Below, in pieces: positions 2,870 through 25,031 of a stretch of 64,000 nt of DNA. Location: NCBI GenBank assembly GCA_035629175.1, contig DASPIL010000107.1, positions 124,001 to 188,000 on the forward strand. The letters are read 5' to 3'. Both the position numbers and the translations under genes were made by a program. The DNA comes from Verrucomicrobiia bacterium. GTDB taxonomy: Bacteria > Verrucomicrobiota > Verrucomicrobiia > Limisphaerales > DASXHY01. Every line of letters begins with the position of its first letter. Within the stretch, counting starts at the first letter, position 1. The notes under the pieces are model-generated. The model was not told the origin of the DNA and did not search any database. It saw only the letters and a list, made by a program, of their open reading frames with translations.

Positions 2870-5800
2870 CTACGGTGAGAGCCGCACGATGCGATAGAAT
2901 CTCTGGCTGTCTCCCGCGATATCGTTGAACGAAAGCGAAGCGCCCGAAGCAACCTGATCCGTTCCCAGTTGCTGCCACTCGGAATCGGCCAGGTCGTTTT
3001 TGTATTCGACCCTGTAGCGATGACCCGGCGACGCATGAAATGTTACGGCAAGCGTTTGGTCGGAATGGGCAATCAGTTCGGTGATGGAAAGCGTTCCGCT
3101 CGCAGGTGGGGGAATGTTGGACGCGCCGGGCGTTGGCGATGGCGTGAGCAATCGCAGCAAACCGGAATCGGGAAGACGCGCTTCACTGACATTCGCGGAT
3201 TGTGCGCCAAACGTCACGGCGTCGATCGGAACCCCGTCAGGGGTGAACAAGCCGAGCGCTTCGCCGTCCTTGGACAATTTGAATGACACGTGCAGGCTGG
3301 ATTGATTGGTGTTCGCTGCCGTGAGTTCATCCGCCCAGACGAGCAGGAACCCGCCAGCCGGAACCTGGAATCCTGCTGGGATTCGAAACTTGAACGGATT
3401 CGCAAGTGAATCCGAAACGTAGTAGCCAGCGAGATCTGCAACAGCTTCGGATGGATTATGCAGTTCGAACCAGTCCTCGTATTTGTTGTTGGCTGGGTTA
3501 AGAAAGCCTCCGTCATTCTCTGCCATCCACTCGTTGATTCTAACGCTGATTGGGGCGAGGGCAGGATTATTCGTCGCCCCGGGTGTCGCATGGAACATCG
3601 CGGTGCGGTGGAACGGCTGCGCGTCGGGGACATTGCCGTACGATTGGTTCGCCGGAAGGGTTTTGAACGTGAGGTAATCGATGACCTGAGGTTGTCCATT
3701 TACCATCCGGGAGAGAGCGATGGACCCGGTTTCCGGTCGGAACGACGCGTGCAAGTGGCCGCCGCTTTCTTCGCCAGTTTCTCCGTCCAGCCAGACCTGC
3801 AGGAATTGTCCGGGTGCCACGCTTGAACCGGCTGGGAACGGCCATTCGGCCGGAGTGCTGTAATTCCTCCCCAGATACAATCCAGCCAGCGGAACGCTGT
3901 TGGATCCTGGGTTGTAAAGTTCCACCCACGGTTCGCGTTCGCCGAAATTATCCATCGGCCCCGTGACATTCTCAGCCTGGATTTCGTTAAGCCAAATGTT
4001 TGGGAACTCAGAGAACAGGCCCGACACAGAATTGGCCCGTCCGGGCGTTCTGACGCCACTGCCGGCGCCCACCGCCCAGTTGCCAACACGGCTGTTGTCG
4101 AACTGCGAACTGATGAGCTGCAGGGAAGTTTCAGATGGCGTGAGCGGCCACGGCGGGGTCGATTCATAGCGCACGCGATCCACGACGACGTCGGCTTCGG
4201 CCGTCAGGCCCGGTTGAATCAGCGAAAGGATTTCGCCGTCGGCCTGGAGCGAACCCTCGAATGTTCCGAAAACGGGAATCAATGCGCCATGGTGCGCGGC
4301 AAAGGCGATGCCACTCCTTGCGAGAACCAGATATTGGCCGGGCGCAATGATCGATCCTTGCGGGAAGGTGTAGCCAATGCCATTCACCGTCCAGCCTGAG
4401 AGGTCGAACGCTGTCGCGGCGCGATTGAACAGTTCTATGTATTCGGCTTCGGGAGCCGCTGTGTTGAAAAGGATTTCGTTGAATACAACATTTCCGATCG
4501 TCGGCTCGGGCGTATGCGAGTTTTGCACGGTCACGCCGATGGCGCCTGCCATGGCATTTCCGGCGCGATCCCTTGCTTCGATGCTCCATGCATTTGTTCC
4601 GGCCGGCGCGGGCAGGGCGAGGCTCCAGTTTGTCGTGCTGGTCCAGCGGGGCTTGTAGTCGACGCCATTGATGCGAACGCTCTCCAATTCCAGTGGTGCC
4701 GTGCCCTGGATGACGACCGCATCGTTTGCTGCGATGAATCGTGTTCCGCTAACCTGGAACGTGAGCGGATCAAACGGCGTCAGTAGCATCAGGATATTGC
4801 TGCGGCGATTCGCGATTGACGATTTCGTGGAGGACGGCGAACCCGCAGCGATGCCGGCAGCAAGAAATGCGGAGTGCTTCGCATCCAGGATTGGCTGAAT
4901 CTCGGCCGGGTTCATTGGACCGTGGGCGAGTTCCTTGAGCGCCCGCAAATACATTCGGAGATATTTCGGCGTGCCCAGCATGCGCGACCAGGGCGTTTCG
5001 CTTGTTTGGAACAACCCGCCGTACGCGAGGGAGTTATCGAGGCAGATGCTCAGGTCGATGGTCGACAGCGTCCACTTGCTTTCGGCACTCACCCATGCAT
5101 CCACGTTCTGGCCGCTGCCTGCGCCAAACGCATCCCAGTTGCCGACAGTGTTGTTCGCCGCCAGCATTCGCATCCAGTTTTCCACGTCCACCACGTTCTC
5201 GAGAATGGCTTCGTAATTTAAATCGTTGTAGGCGCCCGCGGCTTCGATCAGCCGAAAAACGTTTGTATAATCGCTGAGCGACGTTTGGGTTTCCTTGATG
5301 CTCCAGTTGGGCCGGTATCGTGCAACTCGATAGGAACCATCGGGAAATGTGTAACGGCTCATCCGGGCTTCTGAAATGAGACTGGTTGTTTGCCCGGCAT
5401 ACCAGCGTTGAAGTTTTATCAGCTGAACACCCGTGTGATCGGGAAGATATTGATCCTTCACGAGGCCTCCGGTTGGCCGGAGCGCGTCCTCCATCAGCTT
5501 GCCGCGGCGGGTGCCGTTCACATACACCGCGACGAAGCGCCGATAACTCCACGGCAGTCCGAGCCTGCGCATCAGGTAATAAGCGGCCTGCTCGCGTTGC
5601 AGCGTTGCGTCGTTGTTGTTGCTGGTGATGTTGTCCTGTTGAATGTCGTTGCCCGGCCAATGAATCTTGTTGAACGAAGTTGCGCCGAGCAGCAGGTCAT
5701 CCTTCGGCATGCTCCACACGTAATGGCAGGCATTAAACCCAGCGGGTGAACTGTAGCTTTGATGCCAGGGACTTCCCGAATATCGCCCGCCCATGTTGTA

Positions 5801-8281
5801 GATGATGCGGTTGTTGTAAACGATTGTGCCATCGATGTCCTCGTTGCTCATGACAGGCAATCGGACCCATCGCGTGACGTTCGTTTGCGTGAGCCAGAGG
5901 TGATACGTTCCAAACCCGTTGGTTGGATCCGGCTCGCCATAGAAGATGACGCATTCGCGAACCGGTGCGTTGTCCGCAACGAGCTCCGGGAAACGGCTGG
6001 TGGCTCCCGCCGTGTCTGCGCCGTGAAGGACAAAGGCAATCGCCCCAGCGGAACGTCCGGGGATTGTGCCGCTGAAAACGCCATCCCCCGCAACCTTGTC
6101 TCCATTCCAGCCGGAATCGTTCATGACAACGTTCGACTCCGAAATTGCAGGGTCAACGCGGTAAGCCAATGTTAATGAATTCAACCCGTCTGGATCCGAA
6201 ACTCTGGCGCTGACGACAACAGACTGGAAGGCGACAGGAACAGCGGGATCGTGCCGCACGTTGTAGATCGCGGGTCCTGCATTGGTGCGAAGCTGGCTGT
6301 TGGGCGATCCGGGCGTGCCGAGATTAGAAGGAATCGTCAGGCGTCCAGTGGCTTCAAGCTGGCAGCCTGTGAAACGCACAATGGCTTCCGGACATCCCCG
6401 CAGCCAGCGAGCTTTGAAACGGATCGTTGTGTTTTGCTGCGGAGAAAACGTCCCGTTGTTGAGGTTCATCTGCACGCTGTTGGGTCCAACCATCAATCCG
6501 TCTCCCGTCCGCACGTGCAGCGCGACGCCTCCATCTGGAAACCCCGCATTCGTTGCCAGGATTGAACGGGAATGGCTGCCCACGAAGCTCAGGGACGACA
6601 TTCCGTTTTCAAATCCCGAATTGGCAGCGACGTTGCCGCCGATGTTCGCGAGTACTTCCACATTGTCAAAAAGACATTCGCCCGGATCCAGCAACCCGAT
6701 CTGGATCGAACCGCCAGCGCCGCTTTCGGGGCGCGCCGTGGTTTGAATACTCGTCCAGGGCGCTTTCATGGTTTCATCGCTGTCGGCCCAGCTCGAAGCG
6801 AGACGCTTGTCCGCGCGCGCATCAATCAATTCCAGGCTGCTTCCGCCACCGTCCGACCACCGCCCCCAGCGCCCGCCCGTCCCGTAAGTCACGTCATCGA
6901 CGACGATATCGATGTGGTTGGTCGTAGCCTGGCCAGGCGCTTGTCCATCGATTAGCAGATCAGGCTGGCTGAGCGTGATGCGTTCGCCGGAACCGGAAAG
7001 CCGGCCATTGAAATTACCCACCGTGTTCCCTGAATGGAGTTCTGGATAATTGGCAATCAAACGCGCGGCGTTTCTGGCAACGACGAGGTAACCCCCAGGC
7101 GCAAGCTCCTGTCCGGGCGAAAAGGTGAAGCTGACTCCGCCGCCGAGTTTCCACCCAGCAAGGTCAACGGTGTTCGTTCCCTGGTTGAACAACTCGATGA
7201 ACTGGTCATCGTCGTTCCCCGAAATGGGATGATACATGATCTCATTGAAGCCAACGGAACTCACGAGGGGTGGGCTGTTGCTCGCGCCAAAGGAGGTGGC
7301 GGCGAGTCGATACCAATCGGCGCCGTTTGGATAGCGGCCAAGTGAAATTCCATTTTCCTGCGGCCCAAACTTCAAGGCATCGACGATGTTTGTGCCGCCC
7401 GCATCCTTGAAGTAAATCATTTCGCCCGCTGCATTCAGCGCGAATCCAAGCTGTCGCTCGGTGAAGCTGAGAAAGCCGCGGGCGGGGATGATGGTTCCAG
7501 CAGGAATGACAAACTTGTTGTTGGCGGGATGGTCGCTGAGTGTGCATCCGCCGAGATTCGCCGCGGAATTGCCGTGGTTGTAAAGCTCCAGGCCATCCAC
7601 CTGCGGAAGATCCGTATGGGCCAGCACTTCGTTCAGGACAACGTTGCGCAGCGGCGACGGGTTGGTGGCTTCCGCGGAACCTGGCGAGCCCTCCGCACGA
7701 AAACTCCGTTGCCATGCACGGGGATTTGCTTCGCCGTAAGACGCACGCGCCAGCACGATCGAATGGCCGGAGCCGTCGGCACCCATTGGCCAGGGGCCCG
7801 AATCATCGTATGCAAACCGCAGCAGAACGGAATTCTGCTCGTCATGCAATCGGAGTTCGCCGCTGGTTTTTAGTGTGTTCGTGTAAGGACCAAATACCCC
7901 GCCCAATCCATGCACGGCTTGCACGTCGGCCGGAACAGCAGCCACGATGATGTAACCCTGCGCAGGGATTTTTGTTCCCGTTGGAAATGCATATTGAACC
8001 TGCCCCTCGATTCGATAACGGCCAATGTCCTCGGGCCAGGGATTTGAATTGTAGAGTTCGACGAACTCCAGATTCCGCCCATCCGTGCGATCGGCGGGTT
8101 TATACATGACCTCGGTGATGGCGATCGGCGTTCGACGGCTGGACGGTCCTGGACGTTCGCTATGGTCCTGCGAGATGGCACTTGTCACTGACGCCGTGCA
8201 TATCAACAAAGTGATGATGACAGATGATATCCACGGGTTTAAGTCTCGGGGATGGACCTCCGACGCCTGCGCTTTTTTCAC
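2870..8281 (-). CDS. Giant secreted lamin-tail-domain / CotH-like protein
   Basis: An 1803-residue exported protein. An N-terminal signal peptide (hydrophobic core IITLLICTASVTSA) starts from GTG at 8281. At least six lamin-tail domains (LTD, small beta sandwiches) are recognisable by their openings: ITEVMYKP (~55), LNEVLAHTD (~214), FNEIMYHP (~345), FNEILFNT (~1265), LNEIQAEN (~1432) and INEWMAEN (~1579), each followed by a phrase such as FVELYN, FIELFN or WFELHN. The centre (~810-1130) is CotH-like, with FVAVYVNGTRRGKLMED and ENWMRMLAANN; CotH proteins are spore-coat kinase-like folds, but activity here is unproven. A final ~70-residue beta domain ends FYRIVRLSP and resembles the end of the propeller protein at 15308-16888. 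The architecture is common in Verrucomicrobiota and Planctomycetes; the role (surface display, adhesion or polymer processing) is unknown. Confidence 0.85.
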   Translation of the reverse strand: MKKAQASEVHPRDLNPWISSVIITLLICTASVTSAISQDHSERPGPSSRRTPIAITEVMYKPADRTDGRNLEFVELYNSNPWPEDIGRYRIEGQVQYAFPTGTKIPAQGYIIVAAVPADVQAVHGLGGVFGPYTNTLKTSGELRLHDEQNSVLLRFAYDDSGPWPMGADGSGHSIVLARASYGEANPRAWQRSFRAEGSPGSAEATNPSPLRNVVLNEVLAHTDLPQVDGLELYNHGNSAANLGGCTLSDHPANNKFVIPAGTIIPARGFLSFTERQLGFALNAAGEMIYFKDAGGTNIVDALKFGPQENGISLGRYPNGADWYRLAATSFGASNSPPLVSSVGFNEIMYHPISGNDDDQFIELFNQGTNTVDLAGWKLGGGVSFTFSPGQELAPGGYLVVARNAARLIANYPELHSGNTVGNFNGRLSGSGERITLSQPDLLIDGQAPGQATTNHIDIVVDDVTYGTGGRWGRWSDGGGSSLELIDARADKRLASSWADSDETMKAPWTSIQTTARPESGAGGSIQIGLLDPGECLFDNVEVLANIGGNVAANSGFENGMSSLSFVGSHSRSILATNAGFPDGGVALHVRTGDGLMVGPNSVQMNLNNGTFSPQQNTTIRFKARWLRGCPEAIVRFTGCQLEATGRLTIPSNLGTPGSPNSQLRTNAGPAIYNVRHDPAVPVAFQSVVVSARVSDPDGLNSLTLAYRVDPAISESNVVMNDSGWNGDKVAGDGVFSGTIPGRSAGAIAFVLHGADTAGATSRFPELVADNAPVRECVIFYGEPDPTNGFGTYHLWLTQTNVTRWVRLPVMSNEDIDGTIVYNNRIIYNMGGRYSGSPWHQSYSSPAGFNACHYVWSMPKDDLLLGATSFNKIHWPGNDIQQDNITSNNNDATLQREQAAYYLMRRLGLPWSYRRFVAVYVNGTRRGKLMEDALRPTGGLVKDQYLPDHTGVQLIKLQRWYAGQTTSLISEARMSRYTFPDGSYRVARYRPNWSIKETQTSLSDYTNVFRLIEAAGAYNDLNYEAILENVVDVENWMRMLAANNTVGNWDAFGAGSGQNVDAWVSAESKWTLSTIDLSICLDNSLAYGGLFQTSETPWSRMLGTPKYLRMYLRALKELAHGPMNPAEIQPILDAKHSAFLAAGIAAGSPSSTKSSIANRRSNILMLLTPFDPLTFQVSGTRFIAANDAVVIQGTAPLELESVRINGVDYKPRWTSTTNWSLALPAPAGTNAWSIEARDRAGNAMAGAIGVTVQNSHTPEPTIGNVVFNEILFNTAAPEAEYIELFNRAATAFDLSGWTVNGIGYTFPQGSIIAPGQYLVLARSGIAFAAHHGALIPVFGTFEGSLQADGEILSLIQPGLTAEADVVVDRVRYESTPPWPLTPSETSLQLISSQFDNSRVGNWAVGAGSGVRTPGRANSVSGLFSEFPNIWLNEIQAENVTGPMDNFGEREPWVELYNPGSNSVPLAGLYLGRNYSTPAEWPFPAGSSVAPGQFLQVWLDGETGEESGGHLHASFRPETGSIALSRMVNGQPQVIDYLTFKTLPANQSYGNVPDAQPFHRTAMFHATPGATNNPALAPISVRINEWMAENDGGFLNPANNKYEDWFELHNPSEAVADLAGYYVSDSLANPFKFRIPAGFQVPAGGFLLVWADELTAANTNQSSLHVSFKLSKDGEALGLFTPDGVPIDAVTFGAQSANVSEARLPDSGLLRLLTPSPTPGASNIPPPASGTLSITELIAHSDQTLAVTFHASPGHRYRVEYKNDLADSEWQQLGTDQVASGASLSFNDIAGDSQRFYRIVRLSP

Positions 8282-8316: not shown

Positions 8317-8690
8317 CGCCGGTCCAGGGCTGGTTTCCGTCCAGTGAGCAATCCGTGCTGCCGTCCGCCCTGGAGAAGTTTGTGTTGGCCACTCCCGCCT
8401 GAAACTCGCGCGCAACATGACAACGACCGCAATAGGTGGCAGGCAAAACGTGTTGGGGAAAGGCCGCGCAGGGATCCCCGCACGAAGGTCAGTTTTACGC
8501 GCCGCGATCGGAGCATCTACAGGATCCAGATTGTGGGATCCACCCAGACGGCGCCCTTTGCAAAAGGCCGGCGCCGTTCGCAATCCCAGAGGCAATCCTT
8601 CGCTCACTTGGAAGCGCGGAGGAAAACGAACTGCCATGAAGCACACAGCGCGTGGAGCCGCAAACAAACGGAAGGGGATTTTAGAAGGGG

Positions 8691-8718
8691 TTTAACCACG
8701 GATGAACGGGGATTTGTG
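8691..8718 (+). repeat. Dispersed intergenic repeat, copy A (short)
   Basis: TTTAACCACGGATGAACG followed by GGGATTTGT is the shortest copy of a repeat family also found near 12766, 13120, 15132 and 26275. Only the first half-element is clear here; the CTCTGCTACCTCTGC half is absent. Confidence 0.6.
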
Positions 8719-8905
8719 AAGCAGGAGCCGGGTCAGGGCAGAGCTCACGCCAGGGTTTTCAAACCTGCCTTGCGGATTTCCGCCTTCCGACAGGGAAGTT
8801 AGCGATACGCTGCAATTTTCCACTTCTCTTCTTCGCGACTTTCGAGCCCTTCCCACATTGATTCGAACAATGCCTTTGAGGGTGAGAACCGGTTGGCCGG
8901 GAGAA

Positions 8906-11815
8906 TCAACGTGGCGTGCGCAACTCGCGGATAAAGTGGCTCTCGCTCCGCAGCTCGTCGGCGCGCAGCCGCTTCGCAAAATTCCGCATGCCAGGATGCT
9001 TTTCGGCGTTGGTTTTGAACTGAACCTCCATGAACCCTGCCGCAATCAAACTGTTGTGAGCCGCGCGCATCAACAGAACGTAGACCCAGCTGTTTCGGTA
9101 TGCAGGGTCAATGGCCATCCACGGCGCCTGTGGAGTTCCGTTGGTGAGGATCATCAGCGTCGCGCCGACCACTCTGGAACCCTCCATCACAATCCACGAA
9201 TGGCGCTGTGAGAAAGTCTCTTCAAATTGCTCAATGGCGACGGACCCGCCCACCTCGCTCGCAATCAGGGAACGAACCGCGATCGCCGGCGCCTCAACAA
9301 GCGGTACGACTCGCGCCGCGCGGGGGATTTTTCCACTTCGCACGAGTTGTTGCTGAGCACGGTCAAACAGGCGTGCGCCGGCAGAAAGGTCTGTTTCATA
9401 CCACTGGTAAACATTCGACACGGAGAATCTGGCCTGCAGCAGCGCCGCGGCTTCCGCGGATCCCGCTTCAAATGCGCGCGCCGTGATGACGCGAGTCGCG
9501 CCGCATCGCTGCGCTTCGTCACACAGCTTCCGCAGCAGGATGATCAGGAGGTGATCGCCGGAAATTTCTCGTGTAAACGCCCATTCGACATACGCCTGTC
9601 CTCCGTCCGCAAACACCAGCGAACCACAGCCAGCCATGGGCATCGCGCGTCCCGTTTCAACAACTTCGATCAAGCTGTGCGACGGCTTGCGAATCGCGCC
9701 GGGCAACAGGGCGACAACGGCGGCTATGTCCCTCGGCTGCGCCGGACGCAGCACAACGCTGTCTGGCGATTCATCCGAATTCTCCGTGCCGGTCTGAAGA
9801 ACACGTTCAGCGGCTCGCGCCTTCATCTCACGATGCGTCTCCTGACTCAGTTTTCGCCTTCGCGCCCCTGCCAGCAACTGCTGCTTCATCAATGCTTGAA
9901 GCCGGAGAACATCTGCCTCGAATCCTTCCCGGGCTGAATACAGGTCGAGCAGAAACTTAATCGTGACCGGCCTGTGGGGATTGAACCTGAGACTTGTTTC
10001 CAGCGCTGAAATCGCCCCCTCCGGATTTCGCAATCGCACGAGGCAAATTCCCAGCACGAGGTGCGCTTCTGCGAGCGCGTATTCACGGCCCAGCGCCTCA
10101 AGGGCTGCTGCCGTGCCGTTCTCGTAATCTCCCACTTTAAGGCAGCATCGGGCTTTTCCCAACCATGCCACGGCACTGTCGGGCTCCAGTTCCACCGCGC
10201 GCTCGTAGCAGCGCATCGCCTCGACCGGCCGATCCAGCCGTTGATACACCAATCCCAACAGGTTGCAGAAGTCCGGTGACGCGTTTGCCAACGACACTTC
10301 GATTGCCAGCAGAAGGTTTAGCGCTTCCTTGAAGTGGCCGCGGGCATTGTGAATGGTGGCGAGAAGCATCTTCGCCCGCACATCGCGGGGAATCGCCGCG
10401 GCAATGTGTTGAACGATGGTTGAGCCTTCGTCGATCAGGCCAACGCGGAGATAGCACTCCGCCAGCATCAGCCCGAAATCGAAACGCAAAGGAAACGCTT
10501 GATAGATCTGTTCCAACAGCGGAACGGCTTTTCGCACCCGGCCGGAAAAAAGAAATACCATCGCAAGAGCCCAGTCGTTCTCTGCCTGCACAGCAGCGGC
10601 ATAAATGCTTCCTTTGAAAGCCGCTGGCGGAACTGAGGATTCTGAATCGGTGTCCTGTGATTCCGTTTCGCCAGCGCCGCGCTCATCAGGTGTGTCGGGG
10701 GTTTCAATGAAAACGGGTTGCCTTGGCATGTGAAAAATGCTCACGAGCGCCCGGCCATTCAAATCCCGCCCGATGGGCAACTCAGCCATCGTGAGAACAG
10801 TCGGAACAATGTCCAAAACGCCTGCCCCGTGCGCGAGGTTGTCCTGCCGGATTCCAGGGCCCTTGACGACCAGAATGCCCACGGGCCGGTGCTCCAGGGT
10901 TTGGGTTTGAACCTGCCCCGCACCATTCGAAAGCCGCAGCTTGCCTGATTGGTATCCACTGGCCGAGCACAGCACCACCGTGGCATCCGTGCCTGCCAAA
11001 TGAAGCAGCCGTCCCAATAGCAAGTCATGCAATCGATAAGCTCCGTCCACCACATCCCGATAAAACTGAAATTCCAACTCGCTGACCCGTTCCAGTCGGG
11101 GCGCGCGAAATCGCATGAACTCGCGCGAAATGTTGTTGAGGGTGGGATAAAACGCCGCCGTTAAATCCCAGGGTTCCGCTTCCATCAGGTGGGTCGTAAT
11201 TGCGTGGATGGTGAAGCACTCCGCAAGCATTCGCGCCAGTTGGATCAAATGCGGATCGCGTTCCTGGTCGATGTTTGCAAAATCCGGAACAAACAGCCGG
11301 ATTGTCGCGGCATCGATGTCTTGAGGTTGCACTGCGCATTGCGCGAGCGCGGCAGCATGGACGTCGGGGAAAACGCCTCGCGCCGGAAGCGATGGCGATA
11401 CATCACCCTCATGGAGGCGGCGAATGAATGCTTCCGAAACCGCGACGCCATTAATCTGTTCTGCAGGATGACTTGCAGGCCAGTTCACGACGTGGCATCG
11501 CCAACCCTGATCCGACAGGACGTTCCAGAGCGCTTTGACCCGCCTTGAACTGCTTGAGAACGGCTGGATCCGTTCGTCTGAGTCGACTTGGGAAACGCCG
11601 AGAATTCCGTGCTTGTCCGCCAGTCTGCCCGTTGCCAGCGAATTCCAAAGCAGCGGGGAAATGACTGGGCGCAAACTGGCGAGGTTTCCGGAAACGCCTG
11701 CCTCGACAAGTCGCAACAGGTTCGGAAGCGCGCCCGCTTCAAGAAGAGGCCGGATAATCTGCCAGTCAGCGGCATCCCATCCGACCAGCAGAATCCGTTT
11801 GTCCGGGCGACTCAT
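8906..11815 (-). CDS. Alkaline-phosphatase-superfamily phosphodiesterase fused to TPRs and two GNAT-like domains
   Basis: A 969-residue cytoplasmic protein without a signal peptide. Residues 1-~370 are a type I phosphodiesterase / nucleotide pyrophosphatase-like domain: it opens with LLVGWDAADW (metal-ligand Asp), has SPLLWNSLATG around the nucleophile position, YRDVVDGAYRL, and EHRPVGILVVKGPGI before DIVPTVLTMAELP. The usual SDHG metal-binding motif is replaced by CSASG, so the domain may be catalytically dead. Residues ~405-650 are tetratricopeptide repeats (for example SPDFCNLLGLVYQRLDRPVE). From ~690 the protein has two acetyltransferase-like segments: VVLRPAQPRDIAAVVALLP, and a second ending GFMEVQFKTNAEKHPGMRNF. 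The function is unknown; the TPRs suggest a scaffold. ATG at 11815 has no clear Shine-Dalgarno. Confidence 0.75.
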   Translation of the reverse strand: MSRPDKRILLVGWDAADWQIIRPLLEAGALPNLLRLVEAGVSGNLASLRPVISPLLWNSLATGRLADKHGILGVSQVDSDERIQPFSSSSRRVKALWNVLSDQGWRCHVVNWPASHPAEQINGVAVSEAFIRRLHEGDVSPSLPARGVFPDVHAAALAQCAVQPQDIDAATIRLFVPDFANIDQERDPHLIQLARMLAECFTIHAITTHLMEAEPWDLTAAFYPTLNNISREFMRFRAPRLERVSELEFQFYRDVVDGAYRLHDLLLGRLLHLAGTDATVVLCSASGYQSGKLRLSNGAGQVQTQTLEHRPVGILVVKGPGIRQDNLAHGAGVLDIVPTVLTMAELPIGRDLNGRALVSIFHMPRQPVFIETPDTPDERGAGETESQDTDSESSVPPAAFKGSIYAAAVQAENDWALAMVFLFSGRVRKAVPLLEQIYQAFPLRFDFGLMLAECYLRVGLIDEGSTIVQHIAAAIPRDVRAKMLLATIHNARGHFKEALNLLLAIEVSLANASPDFCNLLGLVYQRLDRPVEAMRCYERAVELEPDSAVAWLGKARCCLKVGDYENGTAAALEALGREYALAEAHLVLGICLVRLRNPEGAISALETSLRFNPHRPVTIKFLLDLYSAREGFEADVLRLQALMKQQLLAGARRRKLSQETHREMKARAAERVLQTGTENSDESPDSVVLRPAQPRDIAAVVALLPGAIRKPSHSLIEVVETGRAMPMAGCGSLVFADGGQAYVEWAFTREISGDHLLIILLRKLCDEAQRCGATRVITARAFEAGSAEAAALLQARFSVSNVYQWYETDLSAGARLFDRAQQQLVRSGKIPRAARVVPLVEAPAIAVRSLIASEVGGSVAIEQFEETFSQRHSWIVMEGSRVVGATLMILTNGTPQAPWMAIDPAYRNSWVYVLLMRAAHNSLIAAGFMEVQFKTNAEKHPGMRNFAKRLRADELRSESHFIRELRTPR

Positions 11816-11876
11816 GAGGAGCGTTCCGAAGCGCCAGCCGGATTGAAGTTCCCGTTCGGGTTAACGCAACGGACTT

Positions 11877-12533
11877 CTACCGCGAACTCGCGCGGCGTCG
11901 CAGTGCCGCAACGCCCGCAGCACCCAGGGCCAGCAGGGCAAACTGGGAAGGCTCGGGAACGGCTCCGGCCGTGATGGCTCCGCCGGAAGTTTCGTAAGCA
12001 AAGCCATGGAGCGTAACGGACTGGTAACTATTCAGCGTGATGTCCGCCCATCCGTAATTCGTCGTCCCACCGTTGTTGAATCGCAGCCCGAGATAGGCGC
12101 GCTGTCCCGCGGTCCAGGGCCCCTGGTCCGGAGTGCCGGCGGCGGGTTTGTTGCCGTCCAGGATCGATGACGCCTGTGCCGGATCGACTGTTTCCGCCGG
12201 ACCGATCAACGCGCCGAGTGACAGGGGCGTCGGGTCCGTCAAAGCCCCACCCAGGCCAACGATCTGCGCGTTGTCCTGATCCAGCGCGTCCCCGTCGTCC
12301 TTAAGCTGGTTATCGAACCGGGCCTGGGCGTTCGCGACTTCGGCATTCGCGGCAACATCCCCCGCGAGATTGAAGCTAAGGATCACGCCGTTGCTCTGTG
12401 TTCCGGTAACATCCAGAACATCACGATGCACAATGTCGGCATTCGTGCCGTGCACGGCAGCCGCCAAAGCTGTGGATCCCAAAACGTAACTTTTCAGCCG
12501 GCCGGAAAGATTCTTCATTGTCATGGTCTGCAT
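11877..12533 (-). CDS. PEP-CTERM sorting-domain protein
   Basis: A 218-residue secreted protein. Its C terminus, VPEPSQFALLALGAAGVAALRRR, contains the Val-Pro-Glu-Pro motif, a hydrophobic helix and an arginine cluster that define PEP-CTERM proteins, which exosortases cleave and place at the surface or in the exopolysaccharide matrix. The N terminus has a signal-like segment (LGSTALAAAVHGTNA). The mid-section YLGLRFNNGGTTNYGWADI is typical of small PEP-CTERM beta-sandwich proteins of unknown ligand. Three Met codons occur in the first six residues; ATG 12533 is taken, but 12524 or 12518 is possible. No exosortase gene lies in the window. Confidence 0.85.
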   Translation of the reverse strand: MQTMTMKNLSGRLKSYVLGSTALAAAVHGTNADIVHRDVLDVTGTQSNGVILSFNLAGDVAANAEVANAQARFDNQLKDDGDALDQDNAQIVGLGGALTDPTPLSLGALIGPAETVDPAQASSILDGNKPAAGTPDQGPWTAGQRAYLGLRFNNGGTTNYGWADITLNSYQSVTLHGFAYETSGGAITAGAVPEPSQFALLALGAAGVAALRRRASSR

Positions 12534-12730
12534 TTAAAGTCGTCCGAAGCCCCTAGGGCTCGGAAGTACCTGGTGGCAACGTTTGACTACAAGCATTCCA
12601 GTGCAGCAGCAAGGCAAATGTGCCGCCCGCGCGCAGGTTGGGGCGCGGTTAAGAATGGGTGAGATACGCGCTCTTCGGTTCCCGTGATCGACAACTCGCG
12701 GCCGCAACCAAGCGGGAATGGAACAACGGC

Positions 12731-12898
12731 GTTTACGCTAATTTTCGCGAATTGAAGAGGGGAACTTTAACCACGAATCACACGAAGCACACGAAAACAG
12801 GGCAGCGGAAACCAAATCAAACGACGGATGGACATTGATTGGGAAACCGCCTTCTCTGCCTTTTCTCTGCTACCTCTGCGAGCCCCTGTTAAACGTCG
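12731..12898 (+). repeat. Dispersed intergenic repeat, copy B (composite)
   Basis: The copy begins GTTTACGCTAATTTTCGCG, continues with AATTGAAGAGGGGAAC, then TTTAACCACGAATCACACG (12766), and after ~65 unrelated bases carries the second half, TTTTCTCTGCTACCTCTGCG followed by AGCCCCTGTTAAACGTC (12861-12898). Both halves recur in the same order near 15132 and 26271. Confidence 0.7.
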
Positions 12899-13077
12899 TC
12901 TCTCGTCTCCTGCGGCGGAGAGTTACGCGAATTGCCGAAAAAAAGATGTGTTTAACCTGCCGGCAGGAAATCGAGAACAGTGTCAAGATGCGCCTATGCC
13001 AGAGCGGGAGGGCGGGATCGTTGACGGGCGTCTTGGTTCTCAAAGCGCGTCGGGGGGAACAACCGGAGGGGAAACGG

Positions 13078-13225: not shown

Positions 13226-13434
13226 TGTTTGGCCAGATCGGCAACGGAACGACGAACAGGCTTCGTCGAGGCGGAAAAGCCTGAGATTAATCCAAGACGT
13301 TTAGGTGGAATGGACGTGCCCCGGAATTTTTGTGGCGCCTTTGCCAGTCGATCTAGGGCGGAGATGCGTCGCCGCGGCGGTTGTACATAAAACTACTGGA
13401 AAGCGCGAACCGTCCGAGAAGAGATGCAGCATTG

Positions 13435-14013
13435 ATGAAGAGCACCGTCGAAACAACACTTGCCTGCAGGAGGGTTCACTGGGGGATCTTTGTTCTACCA
13501 ATCCTGCCGCTGGGTGCAACGATTCTCGCCATTGTCCCTGCAATGCTTGTTGTGAACCTGTTCAAGAACATGCTTCGCCCGATCGGTTCTGAAATAGCGA
13601 TTCCCTACATAAGCCACATCATCGCGTTGCTGGCGCTACCGGGAGTTACGGTCTGCATCGCGTTGTTGGTAATCGTCTTCATTGCGTATAACCGCTCAAG
13701 TGTCACGTTGACAGACCGCCGGCTCCATTATCGTATAGGTTTGGTATCATGCACGTCCGGTGAATTGCCTCTCTCGAACGTGGATGCGATCTTCCTTTCA
13801 GATTCCCTGCTGGGTCGGTTGCTCGGGTATGGGACCATCACCGTCACGACCGTCGGAGGCTTGATTATTCCGTTTTATTACGTGCCGGACATCGTCGAGT
13901 TTCACAGGATCCTTCAAAAGGCCATCGACAACTCGAGACATCTGTCGCAACCGGAAAGCAAACCAGCGCAGGCGTCCGCCCCCGACGCCGCTCGCTATAT
14001 GCCGAAGGCTTGA
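13435..14013 (+). CDS. Membrane protein with a bacterial PH-like (bPH2) domain
   Basis: A 192-residue protein with two hydrophobic helices (VLPILPLGATILAIVPAML and the stretch ending LALPGVTVCIALLVIVF) followed by a bPH2/YdbS-type domain: SVTLTDRRLHYRIGLVSC and then LLGRLLGYGTITVTTVGG, the characteristic RLLGYGT turn. Such proteins are inner-membrane proteins of uncertain function. The frame extends back to a TTG at 13381, but ATG 13435 is preceded by AGAGA and puts the first membrane helix in a normal place. The last ~25 residues are polar and Ala/Pro-rich. No functional partner is visible nearby. Confidence 0.7.
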   Translation: MKSTVETTLACRRVHWGIFVLPILPLGATILAIVPAMLVVNLFKNMLRPIGSEIAIPYISHIIALLALPGVTVCIALLVIVFIAYNRSSVTLTDRRLHYRIGLVSCTSGELPLSNVDAIFLSDSLLGRLLGYGTITVTTVGGLIIPFYYVPDIVEFHRILQKAIDNSRHLSQPESKPAQASAPDAARYMPKA

Positions 14014-15307: not shown

Positions 15308-16888
15308 CTACTTTCGCAAGCGAAAGAACTGGAGACCGGAAGTGGCATTCGTACTGAATACCATCTTTCCATTCACAAAGCTGACATTGGGAACAGAAGT
15401 CCAGCCGCCCCCCGAAAGATCCGTCGCTTCCAACCCGAAACCCACTCCCTCAACGGCCGGCCACGAGAGCACCAAATCTGACCCGTCCCTTGTCACCTCC
15501 AGCTTCGGCCCGGCGGCAATCCAGCCGACGAACAGGTCCGCCGGCCCGTTGTTCGTCAATCCGCGCGTTTCCAATGAAAAAGTTCCCGTGAAACTGCCGC
15601 CGACAAATGTCAGGATGGGCATGCCATTAAACGGATGATAGGTGTTCCCCAGCGCGAACGCCTCAGACGTGCCGCTACCCAACTGAGCCGCATCCGCCCG
15701 GAGTTCTCCAGAAGGATCAAGACAAACCAATGCCGCCACTGGATTCGTCACTTCGCCGTTCGGGCCGGGCGACGCAAACCGCCCCGCAATCCAGCAGTTC
15801 GTTCGCGAATCAAAAGCAATGTCATTCGCCGCATCTTTCCCTTGCCCAGGCAATTGCCGGGCCCATGCCAGATCGCCATCGCTGTCGTACTTCGCCACAA
15901 AAATGGTCGAACTGTTCGCATTGGAAAGTGTGACAGAACCGAAGTGGATCACATTGCTGAAGGATCCCGCCGTAAAAAGATTGCCACCCGCATCGATCTT
16001 GATCTTGTTGCCCAATACCATGTCGCCTCTCACCCACTGCACCATTCCCGCAGAGTTATACTTCACCAGAACGTTGGACGTGGTCTGGCTCGCCGGAGAA
16101 ATCCCGTCAAAGGACGTCTCGCCCAATGAACTTGCGGCCACATAGCAGTTGTTCGCCGCGTCGAGCGTGAGCGCAAAGGTCGAAGCAAACGTCCCTTGCC
16201 GAACCCAGGCGACATTTCCCTGTGGATCAAGCTTCACCGTGAAACAGTTTGGTTCCGTTCCAATCTTCGTGAGCGTGGAATCGCCGAAGGTAAAACTTGC
16301 CGATTCAAAGGTTCCTGCGAGATAAAACGCTCCGCCTCCAAAAGACCGTTCTGCGCCGATGTCAGCGAAGGATTCCTTTGCGCTTCCACCTGCGCGCTGG
16401 AGCCACGCGACATTTCCAAGCGTATCGATTCCCGCCACGAAAATATCTGCATCCCCGGCATTGGTCACGGCCGCAGAACCGTATCCGAGGCTGCTTCCCG
16501 AGAAGCTTCCGGCGACCGCGTTCATTCCATTTGGCAGCGCGGCGTGCCGGGCTTCGACTATTGGTTGTTCGATCGTTGGAGCGACGGACCACAATGGTGC
16601 GTCCGAGGACTGATAGCGGAACTTGGTGAGAAAGACGTTTGTGACACCTTCTGTGGTGCTCAGACTGTGGGTGCCAATGGTTGTGTTCATGGCGAAACGT
16701 CCAAGAACGAAGATGTTCGTGTTGAAATCAGTCGCCAGGCTGATCCCAGAAACAGGCGCCGTGCTGCCGGCGCGCGTGAGCCACTGTGCATGGACGCCCT
16801 GGGCGACGGCTGGCTGCTGGCTGCCAAACTGCAGGGCGGTGAATACTGTCATGGTGGCCGTGAACAATGGAAAATCTTGAATCCTCAT
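15308..16888 (-). CDS. Secreted SBBP-like beta-propeller protein
   Basis: A 526-residue exported protein. ATG 16888 is chosen over the upstream TTG at 16930 because AGAAGG lies seven bases before it and a signal peptide (MTVFTALQFGSQQPAVAQG) follows. The body consists of repeats of ~45-60 residues of the form 'D..GNVAWLQRAGG', 'DPQGNVAWVRQG', 'NSAGMVQWVRGD' and 'DSDGDLAWARQLPG', which are SBBP/propeller blades. The final ~75 residues (LVLSWPAVEGVGFGLEAT to QFFRLRK) form a separate beta domain also found, in diverged form, at the end of the 1803-residue LTD protein. No enzyme motif is seen; a surface or binding role is likely. Confidence 0.75.
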   Translation of the reverse strand: MRIQDFPLFTATMTVFTALQFGSQQPAVAQGVHAQWLTRAGSTAPVSGISLATDFNTNIFVLGRFAMNTTIGTHSLSTTEGVTNVFLTKFRYQSSDAPLWSVAPTIEQPIVEARHAALPNGMNAVAGSFSGSSLGYGSAAVTNAGDADIFVAGIDTLGNVAWLQRAGGSAKESFADIGAERSFGGGAFYLAGTFESASFTFGDSTLTKIGTEPNCFTVKLDPQGNVAWVRQGTFASTFALTLDAANNCYVAASSLGETSFDGISPASQTTSNVLVKYNSAGMVQWVRGDMVLGNKIKIDAGGNLFTAGSFSNVIHFGSVTLSNANSSTIFVAKYDSDGDLAWARQLPGQGKDAANDIAFDSRTNCWIAGRFASPGPNGEVTNPVAALVCLDPSGELRADAAQLGSGTSEAFALGNTYHPFNGMPILTFVGGSFTGTFSLETRGLTNNGPADLFVGWIAAGPKLEVTRDGSDLVLSWPAVEGVGFGLEATDLSGGGWTSVPNVSFVNGKMVFSTNATSGLQFFRLRK

Positions 16889-16963
16889 TGCCAACCTTCT
16901 ACCGAACCAAGCTTCGCGCTGCAACTTCAATTGGTGGTTGCAAAGAACGCTGAAGCAGCCTCT

Positions 16964-18016
16964 TCAGGCCCGGAAACACGGCCGTAACCGCTCGTCGTTC
17001 CGGAGAATTGTCTCGACCTCGGCGACACAATCGCGTTCGGACAAAATTGTGTAAAAGTTGGGTTTGATCGATGGCGCAAGCCGAACCGCCTCAAGCCATT
17101 CGGAACGCGAGAAAGGCGCCGCGGCGATCGCACGCCAAAATCCCGTCGCATCGAACAGGTGCGTAATTGTTTCCGTGTGGCGTCCCTGCAAACGGCTCGC
17201 GATGTAGCTTGCAATGCCCACCTGCAGTCCGTGCAAAGCCGGATGCGCGCTTACTCGGTCCAACGCATGCGAAATCAAATGCTCGCTTCCGCTCGCGGGA
17301 CGCGACGAGCTGCAAATAGCCATGGCGATGCCATTCAACATCAACGCCGTTCCCAGCAGCGAAACGCCTTCCAAATCGCGAATTGGCCGCGCAATGAACT
17401 GAAACACGCTCGCATCGGATAACAGCGCGGCGAAATCATCGAGCGCAGTTGCGCGCGCGTGGAAGGCCAGTTTCCAATCGGTTACCGCCGTGAATTTTGC
17501 GACCAGGTCGCCCACCCCCGATTGCCACAAGACTTCCGGCGCGTTCAGGCAAACCTCAGTGTCGAGCACCACGCCAAATGGCATGGCGGACGGAAGCGAT
17601 CGGCGCTGCCCTTCGACAGTCAAACTCGATTGCGGGCTGCAGAACCCATCGTTCGAAAGTGACGTCGGCGTCGCGATGTAATAAATGCGCGCCAGGAACG
17701 ACACATATTTCGCGACGTCGAGCGCCTTGCCGCCGCCGAACCCGACGATCGCATCAACGCCTGTGGGTAATCGTTTAAACAGCGCTTCGGCTTGCTCAAA
17801 GCTGGGGCTGCTGACCGGGACCACCTCGGCGGCCTCGACGTGCTCGCGCTGAAATCCCGCGCAGAGCCGGTGCAGGAGATCAGGATTCAGATCCTGGCTG
17901 TGAAGGACGAGAACGCGCTGGAAGTTGTGGCGTCGCGCGTAAATCCCCAGGCGATCAAGCGCCCCGCGCTTTAATCGGACGAGCGAGGGAATCGCAACTT
18001 GCTTGTGCGTTAACAT
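16964..18016 (-). CDS. sn-Glycerol-1-phosphate dehydrogenase-like enzyme (AraM/EgsA family)
   Basis: A 350-residue NAD(P)-dependent dehydrogenase of the iron-containing alcohol dehydrogenase / dehydroquinate synthase fold, closest in motifs to bacterial glycerol-1-phosphate dehydrogenases that reduce dihydroxyacetone phosphate. It has the nucleotide loop GFGGGKALDVAKY (92-104) and the metal ligands Asp170 (SGVGDLVAKFTA), His246 (GSEHLISH) and His262 (ALHGLQVG). ATG 18016 is chosen because the longer open frame (to 18400) only adds residues that read antisense to the next gene. Its start overlaps the HAD phosphatase stop by seven bases, so the two are probably translationally coupled. Metal type and true substrate are unproven. 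Confidence 0.8.
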   Translation of the reverse strand: MLTHKQVAIPSLVRLKRGALDRLGIYARRHNFQRVLVLHSQDLNPDLLHRLCAGFQREHVEAAEVVPVSSPSFEQAEALFKRLPTGVDAIVGFGGGKALDVAKYVSFLARIYYIATPTSLSNDGFCSPQSSLTVEGQRRSLPSAMPFGVVLDTEVCLNAPEVLWQSGVGDLVAKFTAVTDWKLAFHARATALDDFAALLSDASVFQFIARPIRDLEGVSLLGTALMLNGIAMAICSSSRPASGSEHLISHALDRVSAHPALHGLQVGIASYIASRLQGRHTETITHLFDATGFWRAIAAAPFSRSEWLEAVRLAPSIKPNFYTILSERDCVAEVETILRNDERLRPCFRA

Positions 18017-18693
18017 GGAGTTTTGAGAAGAACGCCAGCGATTTCGGACCAGCGATGGAATGGATGAAATGATTCGCCACGGCGCTTGAGTTCCACCGCA
18101 AGCCATCCCCGTGCAAACCGAAGCTCCGGCCTGACGGCGAGCGCCGATGCCAGGTCCGGCCGGCCATCCCCGGCGAACGCGGCGCAACGGCTTCGTTGCA
18201 TCGCATCCGTCACCACCGCGAGTTTGTCGATGCCATTCTGCTGGCTGAAGAATCGCGATTCCACGGGCAACGATATTTCCAGGCCGCGTTGAGGGGAGAA
18301 CCTTCCGGGATTTGCATGCACAAGGAGGCTTGTGCGCGCCGCGCGAAGGAGATGCTGGATGTACCATTCGCAGCCTGCGGATGCGACGATGATTTCCCAA
18401 CCGTCTCGGCGAAGCTGTTCAACCGACTTCGCCAATTCCGGATCGATTTGCATTCGGCTCACGAGGTCGAAGAGCGTTTTCTCGTCCGTTCGAATGCGGG
18501 AGAAAATTGCAGCGAGCGCTTCAAAATGCGTCAGCTTGCCAGCGACATACTGTTCCCAGGGATCGTCATCGGCACAGACCGGCCACTGCGCCCGCACAAG
18601 GTCGTAGAAATCGTGAAGCGTGATTGTCCCGTCGAAATCTGTGACCAGGATTTTTTGACGGGATTCGGAGTTTTGCCGGGATGCGGTGCTCAC
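18010..18693 (-). CDS. HAD-superfamily phosphatase (MtnX/SerB-like)
   Basis: A 227-residue HAD phosphatase with motif I TDFDGTIT (nucleophile Asp19, acid/base Asp21), motif II IIVASAG and motif IV FAGDGRPDLASA. The small helical cap after motif I (DFYDLVRAQW) resembles the MtnX and phosphoserine-phosphatase subgroup. It starts with GTG (18693) and overlaps the downstream dehydrogenase gene. A phosphatase coupled to a glycerol-1-phosphate dehydrogenase could release the alcohol or act on a downstream phosphorylated product; this is inference. The upstream end overlaps the open frame of a prepilin-like remnant. Confidence 0.8.
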   Translation of the reverse strand: MSTASRQNSESRQKILVTDFDGTITLHDFYDLVRAQWPVCADDDPWEQYVAGKLTHFEALAAIFSRIRTDEKTLFDLVSRMQIDPELAKSVEQLRRDGWEIIVASAGCEWYIQHLLRAARTSLLVHANPGRFSPQRGLEISLPVESRFFSQQNGIDKLAVVTDAMQRSRCAAFAGDGRPDLASALAVRPELRFARGWLAVELKRRGESFHPFHRWSEIAGVLLKTPC

Positions 18694-23570: not shown

Positions 23571-24197
23571 ATGTATAGAATCATCGGCGCAGATGGCAAA
23601 GCCTACGGTCCGGTCAGCGAAGAACAGATTCGTTTCTGGATCGCTGAGAGCCGCGTGAACGCGCAGACGCAGGTGCAGGCGGAGGGAACGGCTGAATGGA
23701 AACCGCTTGCGCATTTCCCGGAATTTTCGGCGTCATTCGCCGGGCCCGAAGCTCCAATCGCGCCATCCATCCCGGCAGCGCAACTGGCCAGCAACCGCGA
23801 AGCCGCGAAACGCAGCGTCAAGGCTCCGGCAATCGCGCTCAAGGTGTACGCCGGACTTTTGCTGGTCGTCAGCCTGCTCTCACTGCTGCTCGTCGTCCTG
23901 GTCATGACTGGCTCAAACCCTTTCACGAACGTCGAGAACGCTGAAATCTCAAAATCGCTGACGCAGCAGTTTGGCAGCGCGACCGCGTTCATCGGTCCGA
24001 TTCTCAACCTCGTTTTCGTCGGCCTCATCTTCGTGGGAGCATCGAAGTTTGAACGGTTCGAAAGCTTTGGAATGGCGCTGACGGCGTGCATCCTCGCGAT
24101 GCTTCCATGCTCGCTGTGTTGCGTGATTGGCCTCCCCATTGGGATTTGGGGAATCGTGGTGTTGAACCAGTCGCAGGTGAAATCGCAGTTCAAGTAA
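23571..24197 (+). CDS. GYF_2-domain membrane protein (DUF4190-like)
   Basis: A 208-residue protein. The first ~50 residues are a GYF_2 domain (MYRIIGADGKAYGPVSEEQI and the Trp of EWKPLAHFPEF), a proline-peptide-binding fold. After a linker come one hydrophobic helix (VYAGLLLVVSLLSLLLVVLV), a polar stretch, and two more helices ending LPCSLCCVIGLPIGIWGIVV, typical of DUF4190-type proteins. AGGAATAAGTT precedes the ATG as a usable Shine-Dalgarno. Its N-terminal half is paralogous to the next gene. Confidence 0.8.
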   Translation: MYRIIGADGKAYGPVSEEQIRFWIAESRVNAQTQVQAEGTAEWKPLAHFPEFSASFAGPEAPIAPSIPAAQLASNREAAKRSVKAPAIALKVYAGLLLVVSLLSLLLVVLVMTGSNPFTNVENAEISKSLTQQFGSATAFIGPILNLVFVGLIFVGASKFERFESFGMALTACILAMLPCSLCCVIGLPIGIWGIVVLNQSQVKSQFK

Positions 24198-24203
24198 GAC
24201 GCC

Positions 24204-25031
24204 ATGTATCGAATCATTGGAGCCGACGGGCAACCCTACGGTCCAGTGGATGCGGCGCAGGTGCGCCGTTGGTTCGCGGAGAACCGCGTTCGCCGCGACA
24301 CAATGATGGAACGTGAGGGATCATCCGAGTGGAAGCCGCTTGCGGATTTCGAAGAATTCTCAGACTTGTTCCAATCAGCTGCGCCGGATCCGGGGCCGGC
24401 GAGTTCAGGAACCGGCGGCAGTCGCAGTATGGAATTGGAAGCGTCGATCGCCGTTGCGAACTCGCGTCCCGGCTTCAGCGCGACGGAGTGCCTGGGGCGT
24501 GGCTGGGATTTGGTGATGGGCCGTTTTTGGTTGTCGGTCGGAGTCAGTGCCGTCTGTGTGGTCATTACAAGCGTTCCGCTGCTTTACGGCCCCGTCATGA
24601 CGGGATTGTTCTGGTTTTTCCTGCAACAGATCCGCACTCGAAACGCGAGGCTTGAAGACGCCTTTGAGCCATTCAAACACGTACTGCTGCAATCGTTTCT
24701 CGCCGGACTTGTCGTCTCCGTGCTCGTGTCCATCGGCACGATGCTGTGTTTCGTGCCCGGAATAATCCTGACTTGCCTATGGATGTTCACGTGGCCTTTG
24801 TTAATGGACAAACGTTTGGATTTCTGGCCGGCAATGGAGGTTAGTCGCAAAGTTTTGTGGCTGCGCATCTGGAGCATTCTAGGCCTTTGGTGCCTGTCGC
24901 TCTTGCTGCTCCTTGCGGGATTGTTGCTATGCTACGTGGGGTTGTTTGTTGCGGTTCCTGTCGTCATCGCTGCCCATGCCTGCGCGTACGAGGAGCTGTT
25001 CGGGACGCCGCGGACGGAGCCCCTTCCGTGA
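24204..25031 (+). CDS. GYF_2-domain membrane protein, paralogue of the preceding gene at the N terminus
   Basis: A 275-residue protein. The N terminus (MYRIIGADGQPYGPVDAAQV, EWKPLADFEEF) is nearly the same as in the preceding gene, six bases upstream, which points to duplication of the GYF_2 module. The C-terminal part differs: four to five membrane helices around the motifs GRGWDLVMGRFWLSVGVS and LEDAFEPFKH, like the DUF975/YciC-type integral membrane domains. Function is unknown; the shared GYF_2 suggests both bind the same proline-rich partner. Confidence 0.8.
   Translation: MYRIIGADGQPYGPVDAAQVRRWFAENRVRRDTMMEREGSSEWKPLADFEEFSDLFQSAAPDPGPASSGTGGSRSMELEASIAVANSRPGFSATECLGRGWDLVMGRFWLSVGVSAVCVVITSVPLLYGPVMTGLFWFFLQQIRTRNARLEDAFEPFKHVLLQSFLAGLVVSVLVSIGTMLCFVPGIILTCLWMFTWPLLMDKRLDFWPAMEVSRKVLWLRIWSILGLWCLSLLLLLAGLLLCYVGLFVAVPVVIAAHACAYEELFGTPRTEPLP

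Follow-up and report, generated by a model that had tools for sequence, protein, structure and literature searches.

The alkaline phosphatase (AP) fold, the TPR and the GNAT domain are each already known, as are pseudoenzymes as a kind. Among described enzymes, the closest to the protein analyzed here are the nucleotide pyrophosphatases/phosphodiesterases, represented by Xac NPP and the ENPP family (PF01663), whose six metal ligands we take to be arranged as D, DxxxH, DH and H, an assignment and numbering adopted after Xac NPP. A second point of reference is RaxST, a protein-tyrosine sulfotransferase encoded beside its secreted substrate RaxX, as described in PMC6637879. The likeness to our locus would lie in a modifying, or formerly modifying, protein being encoded beside a secreted one; it can serve only as an analogy for the sulfotransferase-bearing relatives described below, the protein studied here having no sulfotransferase. 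In the open-licence literature, we found no description of the domain combination reported here, of its repeated loss, or of the gene pairing.

Here, in a 64,000-nucleotide stretch of a Verrucomicrobiia genome (the whole of which is hereafter termed the window), a gene on the minus strand (8906..11815), with an ATG start and a frame intact over 969 codons, encodes a 969-residue PDE-TPR-GNAT fusion as judged from its open reading frame and Pfam matches. In its own genome, this ORF occurs once at full length, and the four other matches cover TPR residues only. The N-terminal AP/NPP-fold domain, which is putatively catalytically dead, spans residues 1-370 (10706..11815, minus strand) as delineated by Pfam, AlphaFold2 (AF2), VIA-align and the family alignment, and the Pfam family Phosphodiest (PF01663) matches residues 9-291 (E 6e-15, 56.1 bits, cut-off 23). 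A TPR array follows at residues 403-660 (9836..10609, minus strand), where several TPR families match from residue 424 onward (TPR_19 at 70.8 bits against a cut-off of 25) and the AF2 model displays helical hairpins at 403-659; the TPR proteins that this part resembles include OGT and SPINDLY, whose TPRs bind clients. The C-terminal part would comprise a first GNAT-like domain at residues 686-825 (9341..9760, minus strand), suggested by homology to the L144 ORF and by hhalign comparison of the two halves, and a second at residues 826-969 (8909..9340, minus strand), suggested by a below-cut-off match to Acetyltransf_6 and a Naa30 profile match. The original prediction of TPRs and two acetyltransferase-like domains was thus borne out for the TPRs, which score over cut-off, and in part for the GNATs, which are only weakly recognizable and score below cut-off. 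No signal peptide was seen on inspection by eye, and the protein is probably cytosolic.

Several other genes of the window were recorded. Downstream of the fusion gene lies a gene (2870-8281, minus strand) for an 1803-residue protein that combines a CotH-kinase domain with six stretches of Lamin Tail Domain. Elsewhere, we observed a bacterial PH-domain protein (bPH_2; 13381-14013, plus strand), a protein with SBBP beta-propeller repeats (15308-16930, minus strand), a glycerol-1-phosphate-dehydrogenase-like protein with about 130 extra N-terminal residues (16964-18400, minus strand; NF002022 at 216 bits against a cut-off of 413), and two adjacent genes with a GYF_2 domain in each (23571-25028, plus strand).

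Alignment with 84 family ORFs, combined with reading of the codons (all on the minus strand), revealed that the AP domain of the window lacks four of the six putative metal ligands. The first metal Asp, D14 (GAT, 11774..11776), and the last metal His, H309 (CAC, 10889..10891), are kept, as had been proposed from the sequence, and the nucleophile position is kept as Ser (S53, TCC, 11657..11659). The proposed replacement of SDHG by SASG was likewise confirmed from the DNA: at S284-A285-S286-G287 (10955..10966), A285 (GCC) and S286 (AGT) stand where relatives carry two of the putative ligands. Here the original prediction, correct about SDHG, had overlooked a second loss, since the DxxxH of relatives reads N227 (AAC) xxx R231 (CGC) in the window (11123..11137), removing two further putative ligands. 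By the Xac NPP assignment, both metal sites presumably retain one of their three ligands. The family profile sets its SDHG on the SDHG of Xac NPP, the segment taken alone being not significant (2.8 bits). Across the seven positions, the full signature D-S/T-D-H-D-H-H is found in 68 of the 84 aligned ORFs (DSDHDHH in 66 and DTDHDHH in 2), such that the nucleophile position of intact relatives is Ser in 66 cases, as in the window, and Thr in two. The possibility that SDHG is generally missing from the orthologues is thereby ruled out; the ligand loss in the window is derived, and its deviation lies far from chance.

Structure prediction and superposition on a nucleotide pyrophosphatase, the check that accompanied the original prediction, indicated that the AP domain keeps the NPP fold. 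The AF2 model of residues 1-660, built from 28 sequences, predicted both the AP and the TPR folds with a mean pLDDT of 87.9 and a pTM of 0.86; by block, the pLDDT was 91-95 for those containing positions 227, 231 and 285/286, and 59 for the one containing 309. With VIA-align, the modeled AP domain superposed on Xac NPP (7n1s) with a Z of 27.2 and an rmsd of 2.6 over 271 residues, tied with PafA (5too; Z 28.2, rmsd 3.2, 323 residues). The domain therefore resembles Xac NPP and the ENPPs in its predicted fold, in a Pfam score over cut-off, and in its first Asp, nucleophile-position Ser and last His. Unlike a type I phosphodiesterase/NPP, the protein of the window has lost both DxxxH and SDHG, carries TPR and GNAT parts, and displays no extracellular signal that we could see. 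With four of six putative ligands gone from a retained NPP fold, the earlier suggestion that this is not a working hydrolase is well supported.

The nearest large group of relatives consists of PDE-TPR-sulfotransferase proteins (L061, L141, L037 and others), which share the AP-TPR order of the window and are about 28-38% identical to it overall. These proteins retain the catalytic signature and many carry a sulfotransferase with a PAPS motif, whereas the protein of the window has neither. Besides the window, 11 further degenerate ORFs were identified among the 84 aligned. In five of them (L066, L133, L134, L135 and L136), the last five positions read GRAHK (four copies) or GAAHK (one copy); the others are L137, L139, L108, L109, L153 and L155. 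The other five rows were classed as neither intact nor degenerate, namely the fragments L057 and L058, the two pieces of the split gene L140, and the distant AP protein L067. L153 and L155 (genomes G478 and G566) resemble the window in their PDE-TPR-GNAT order and degenerate metal site; they differ from it in being only 23-25% identical and in their site residues.

In a careful tree of 42 rows, at least three state changes between intact and degenerate are needed, and a quick tree of 80 rows that includes L108 and L109 needs four. Degeneration of the kind found in the window gene has therefore occurred repeatedly, in at least three lineages. A starred branch (99/99) of the 42-row tree has the window, L153 and L155 together to one side; because the branch leading to the latter two is long (2.48), their grouping with the window calls for caution. 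The tree does not favor a common origin for the degenerate copies associated with GNATs, yet a clade uniting the window, L153 and L155 with the five copies L066 and L133-L136 is not rejected (AU p 0.091). The dN/dS ratios of the AP domains in degenerate pairs were 0.23 (L153/L155), 0.24 (L135/L136), 0.18 (L066/L133) and 0.47 (L137/L139), compared with 0.17 and 0.23 in two intact control pairs, although such ratios are rough where dS is high, as in some pairs (1.57 for the L066/L133 AP domains). Since the degenerate pairs are similar to the intact ones, the dead AP domains of the relatives appear to be maintained, with one partial exception (L137/L139). No second genome of the window's own family was present among the genomes searched. 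These results bear on a caveat of the original prediction, by which intact orthologues would point to a lineage-specific error: most relatives do have an intact site, yet comparable losses are found in further lineages, and in three of the four degenerate pairs the AP domain is as constrained as in the intact controls.

Some features of individual relatives are worth recording. The neighbor of L153 and L155, of dihydroxy-acid-dehydratase type, is 97% identical between the two, compared with 69% for the PDE-TPR-GNAT protein, and the fusion thus evolves fast. In L140 (6040-8329, genome G118), an otherwise intact PDE-TPR gene is divided between two frames, and the loci L031, L130 and L141 each hold two PDE-TPR genes. 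L038 carries a full-signature PDE-TPR gene on a contig titled Rubrivivax (Pseudomonadota) that groups with verrucomicrobial copies, reflecting either transfer or a misbinned contig.

The C-terminal region of the window protein is best read as two GNAT-like domains, a reading of residues 686-969 from sequence comparison that is unproven. When this region was scanned alone, Acetyltransf_6 matched at about residues 875-938 (E 0.0012); its 19.4 bits, below the cut-off of 22, are the best GNAT profile score of the protein. The first half has a single Pfam match, obtained through the stand-alone homologue L144, whose residues 10-115 match Acetyltransf_1 (E 0.0046; 17.7 bits against a cut-off of 20.7). 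A profile of the region and seven homologues matched Naa30 at E 0.0019 in the second half, and hhalign detects a resemblance between the two halves (E 0.0083), to which it assigns a probability of just 4.8. A phmmer comparison of the region with PDB sequences yielded no match up to E 5, and the AF2 model of the GNAT part, from a single sequence, was unusable (pLDDT 33.7). Each half is thus akin to GNAT acyltransferases (Acetyltransf_1, Acetyltransf_6 and Naa30) by weak profile matches obtained partly via homologues; unlike them, it scores below every curated cut-off and lacks the canonical CoA loop, [QR]xxGx[GA] being absent at both expected places. Among the eight GNAT rows, the loop occurs only in the second half of L163.

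In the window, the GNAT-like domains occupy the position of the sulfotransferase that ends most long relatives. Sulfotransfer_3 was detected at E up to 0.01 in 23 of the 39 family members scanned, and the PAPS-type motif GxPR[ST]GT[ST] in 32 of the 35 members longer than 850 residues; the exceptions are L153, L155 and L063, the last of which carries the variant GLPRAGTS. The protein of the window showed no Sulfotransfer Pfam match and contains neither GxPR[ST]GT[ST] nor PRxGT. Alignments of L153 (E 2e-46) and L155 (E 2e-55) cover its full length, and the GNAT pair is common to all three.

Elsewhere the GNAT pair occurs as a separate gene, directly upstream of a degenerate PDE-TPR gene in G234 and G149. 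In G237 and G268, the main GNAT-pair match lies on a different contig from the degenerate PDE, although G237 has a second, weaker match on the degenerate-PDE contig (C197:1514-2119, E 3e-5). In G485, the GNAT-pair gene forms a row with two others, one for a secreted protein and one for an intact PDE-TPR-sulfotransferase; this row (L144:4295-8891) continues with a class-III aminotransferase and an aldehyde dehydrogenase. Within the window's order, where at least 29 genomes carry a PDE gene (up to six candidates scored per genome), the GNAT pair co-occurs with degenerate copies: a profile of four rows, the window among them, found it, kinship ignored, in five of eight genomes with a degenerate copy and in none of the 21 others, whose observed copies were all intact, four of the five genomes falling into one tree clade and thus representing two lineages rather than five events. 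G129 was counted as intact from one copy, its partial PDE copy (G129:C368) being left out. The GNAT-pair gene was not found in G083, G316 and G318, which have a degenerate copy.

A gene for a secreted PEP-CTERM protein, the putative client, lies 61 bp upstream of the PDE gene on the same strand (11877..12533, minus strand), as identified by its tag match, the family profile and its neighborhood. The PEP-CTERM tag (PF07589) scored 29.2 bits against a cut-off of 20.7, and two exosortase matches over cut-off are located elsewhere in the genome. The interval that separates the genes yielded no terminator-like site, and a scan of 8600-13000 found no sigma-70 promoters. Apart from its sorting tag, the protein is a member of a family that adjoins PDE-TPR genes, and it is the sole match to this family in its own genome at E up to 0.001, all 37 candidates being scored. 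For 44 of 66 PDE-TPR genes, a family member is found at most 700 bp away, on the same strand in 37 cases; the profile was trained on the same ORFs as this count, and 44 of 66 is a low estimate, because the crude ORF caller missed at least one neighbor (L124/G132, found by six-frame search). To be among the 66, a gene needed either a hit or 1 kb of sequence to each side, a rule that removed L137 among others; the fragments L057 and L058 were left out, L140 was counted once, and L105-L109, used as 4-kb loci, stand outside the neighborhood counts.

Across the window's order, the secreted family was found in at least 25 of 29 PDE genomes and at least 50 of 291 others (Fisher p 5.8e-14, kinship ignored), or in at least 19 of 23 and 50 of 291 when the six profile-building genomes were removed (p 1.6e-10, kinship ignored), these counts being lower bounds with the first nine candidates scored per genome. 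As in the window, a sorted secreted protein adjoins many PDE-TPR-sulfotransferase genes of Verrucomicrobiota, Planctomycetota and Bacteroidota. The sorting tags vary, with PEP-CTERM over cut-off at the verrucomicrobial loci L041 and L141, weak tag-like matches at the planctomycete loci L042 and L053, and a T9SS tail at L037 and L040 of Bacteroidota; NCBIfam models matched the tag regions of the secreted proteins, and its family models were all below cut-off. Among degenerate copies, two of nine adjoin the family (the window and L135), and none of its genes was found near the two remaining GNAT fusions, L153 and L155. In two genomes with a degenerate PDE, the secreted-protein domain was seen within frames of 1035-2473 residues (G083:C76:73593-74135; G237:C26, C164, C222 and C327).

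Taken together, the findings suggest that what was once an enzyme now assists the adjacent exported surface protein; a role as scaffold or sensor is plausible. Since the protein has lost its AP site as well as the standard CoA loop, binding is a likelier function for it than catalysis. We lean, at somewhat less than an even chance, toward a maintained pseudoenzyme binding partner that probably acts in the maturation of the upstream surface protein. The NPP-fold domain would no longer hold its two metals or hydrolyze, its fold being retained for binding; the TPR superhelix would hold a client before export, most likely the upstream PEP-CTERM protein; and the GNAT-like pair, in the sulfotransferase's place, may act as a further binding module or as an unorthodox acyl-transfer module. 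What recurs most across the family is the combination of an AP-TPR core and a sorted surface protein, the sulfotransferase or GNAT pair being optional, and the simplest account is that the family's TPRs hold the surface protein prior to export. Against this reading, degenerate copies adjoin the surface gene in only the two cases of nine noted above, no such gene was found close to L153 and L155, and G485 combines the GNAT pair with an intact PDE-TPR-sulfotransferase.

Among the competing explanations, the GNAT pair might be an active acyltransferase whose substrate is the surface protein or some precursor at the cell surface, with the dead AP domain merely positioning that substrate. We give this a modest chance: the pair stands in for another group-transfer domain, the PAPS-motif sulfotransferase; the GNAT part of L153/L155 has a dN/dS of 0.14; weak Naa30 and Acetyltransf_6 matches are present; and tandem GNATs lacking the usual loop, such as FemABX and NMT, can be enzymes, all of which has to be set against the missing CoA loop in the window and in every GNAT row apart from L163. 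A somewhat less probable, yet serious, alternative places the function in the AP pocket, where basic residues such as R231 would replace the metals and bind phosphate, sulfate or a PAP-like nucleotide uncut, switching TPR binding. R231 occurs in the window and in four of the five copies of the largest degenerate clade, all five of which have K at 309; L153 and L155 have K at 286, although their alignment at the site positions is based on 27-29% identity. The retention of S53 and H309 in the window would also suit an anion-binding pocket.

A hydrolase that still works through substitute ligands, or by a single-metal or metal-free mechanism, would be in keeping with the retained fold, first Asp, nucleophile-position Ser and last His, but with one of three ligands left per putative metal site, with A285 and S286 being unusual as zinc ligands and with R231 bringing in charge, we consider it improbable. 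Marginally less credence still goes to an assembly error or a decaying gene. The sequence does come from one draft genome of 108 contigs, and no close orthologue was found that confirms the substitutions; against this stand the intact 969-codon frame, a GC3 of 0.64, 0.66 and 0.68 in the AP, TPR and GNAT parts, a confident AF2 model, four separately altered ligand codons and the parallel losses elsewhere. On the intact frame, confident fold, parallel losses and dN/dS in relatives, we rejected this explanation.

Returning to the favored reading of a maintained, client-binding pseudoenzyme, its extension to the family is more tentative, and we hold it at well below even confidence. In Verrucomicrobiota, Planctomycetota and Bacteroidota, a maturation module may exist in which the adjacent exosortase- or T9SS-sorted protein is modified by an AP-fold PDE-TPR protein, in many cases one equipped with a sulfotransferase, and some branches of which would have turned to a dead hydrolase, a non-canonical GNAT pair and a client-binding pseudoenzyme. 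Within this one family, apparently functional members are numerous and several others have degenerated separately, which makes the evolution of pseudoenzymes directly testable, since the comparison offers substitutions at known ligand positions together with a changed C-terminal partner. The pairing with the gene of a sorted surface protein, in turn, points to a candidate system for surface-protein modification in three phyla.
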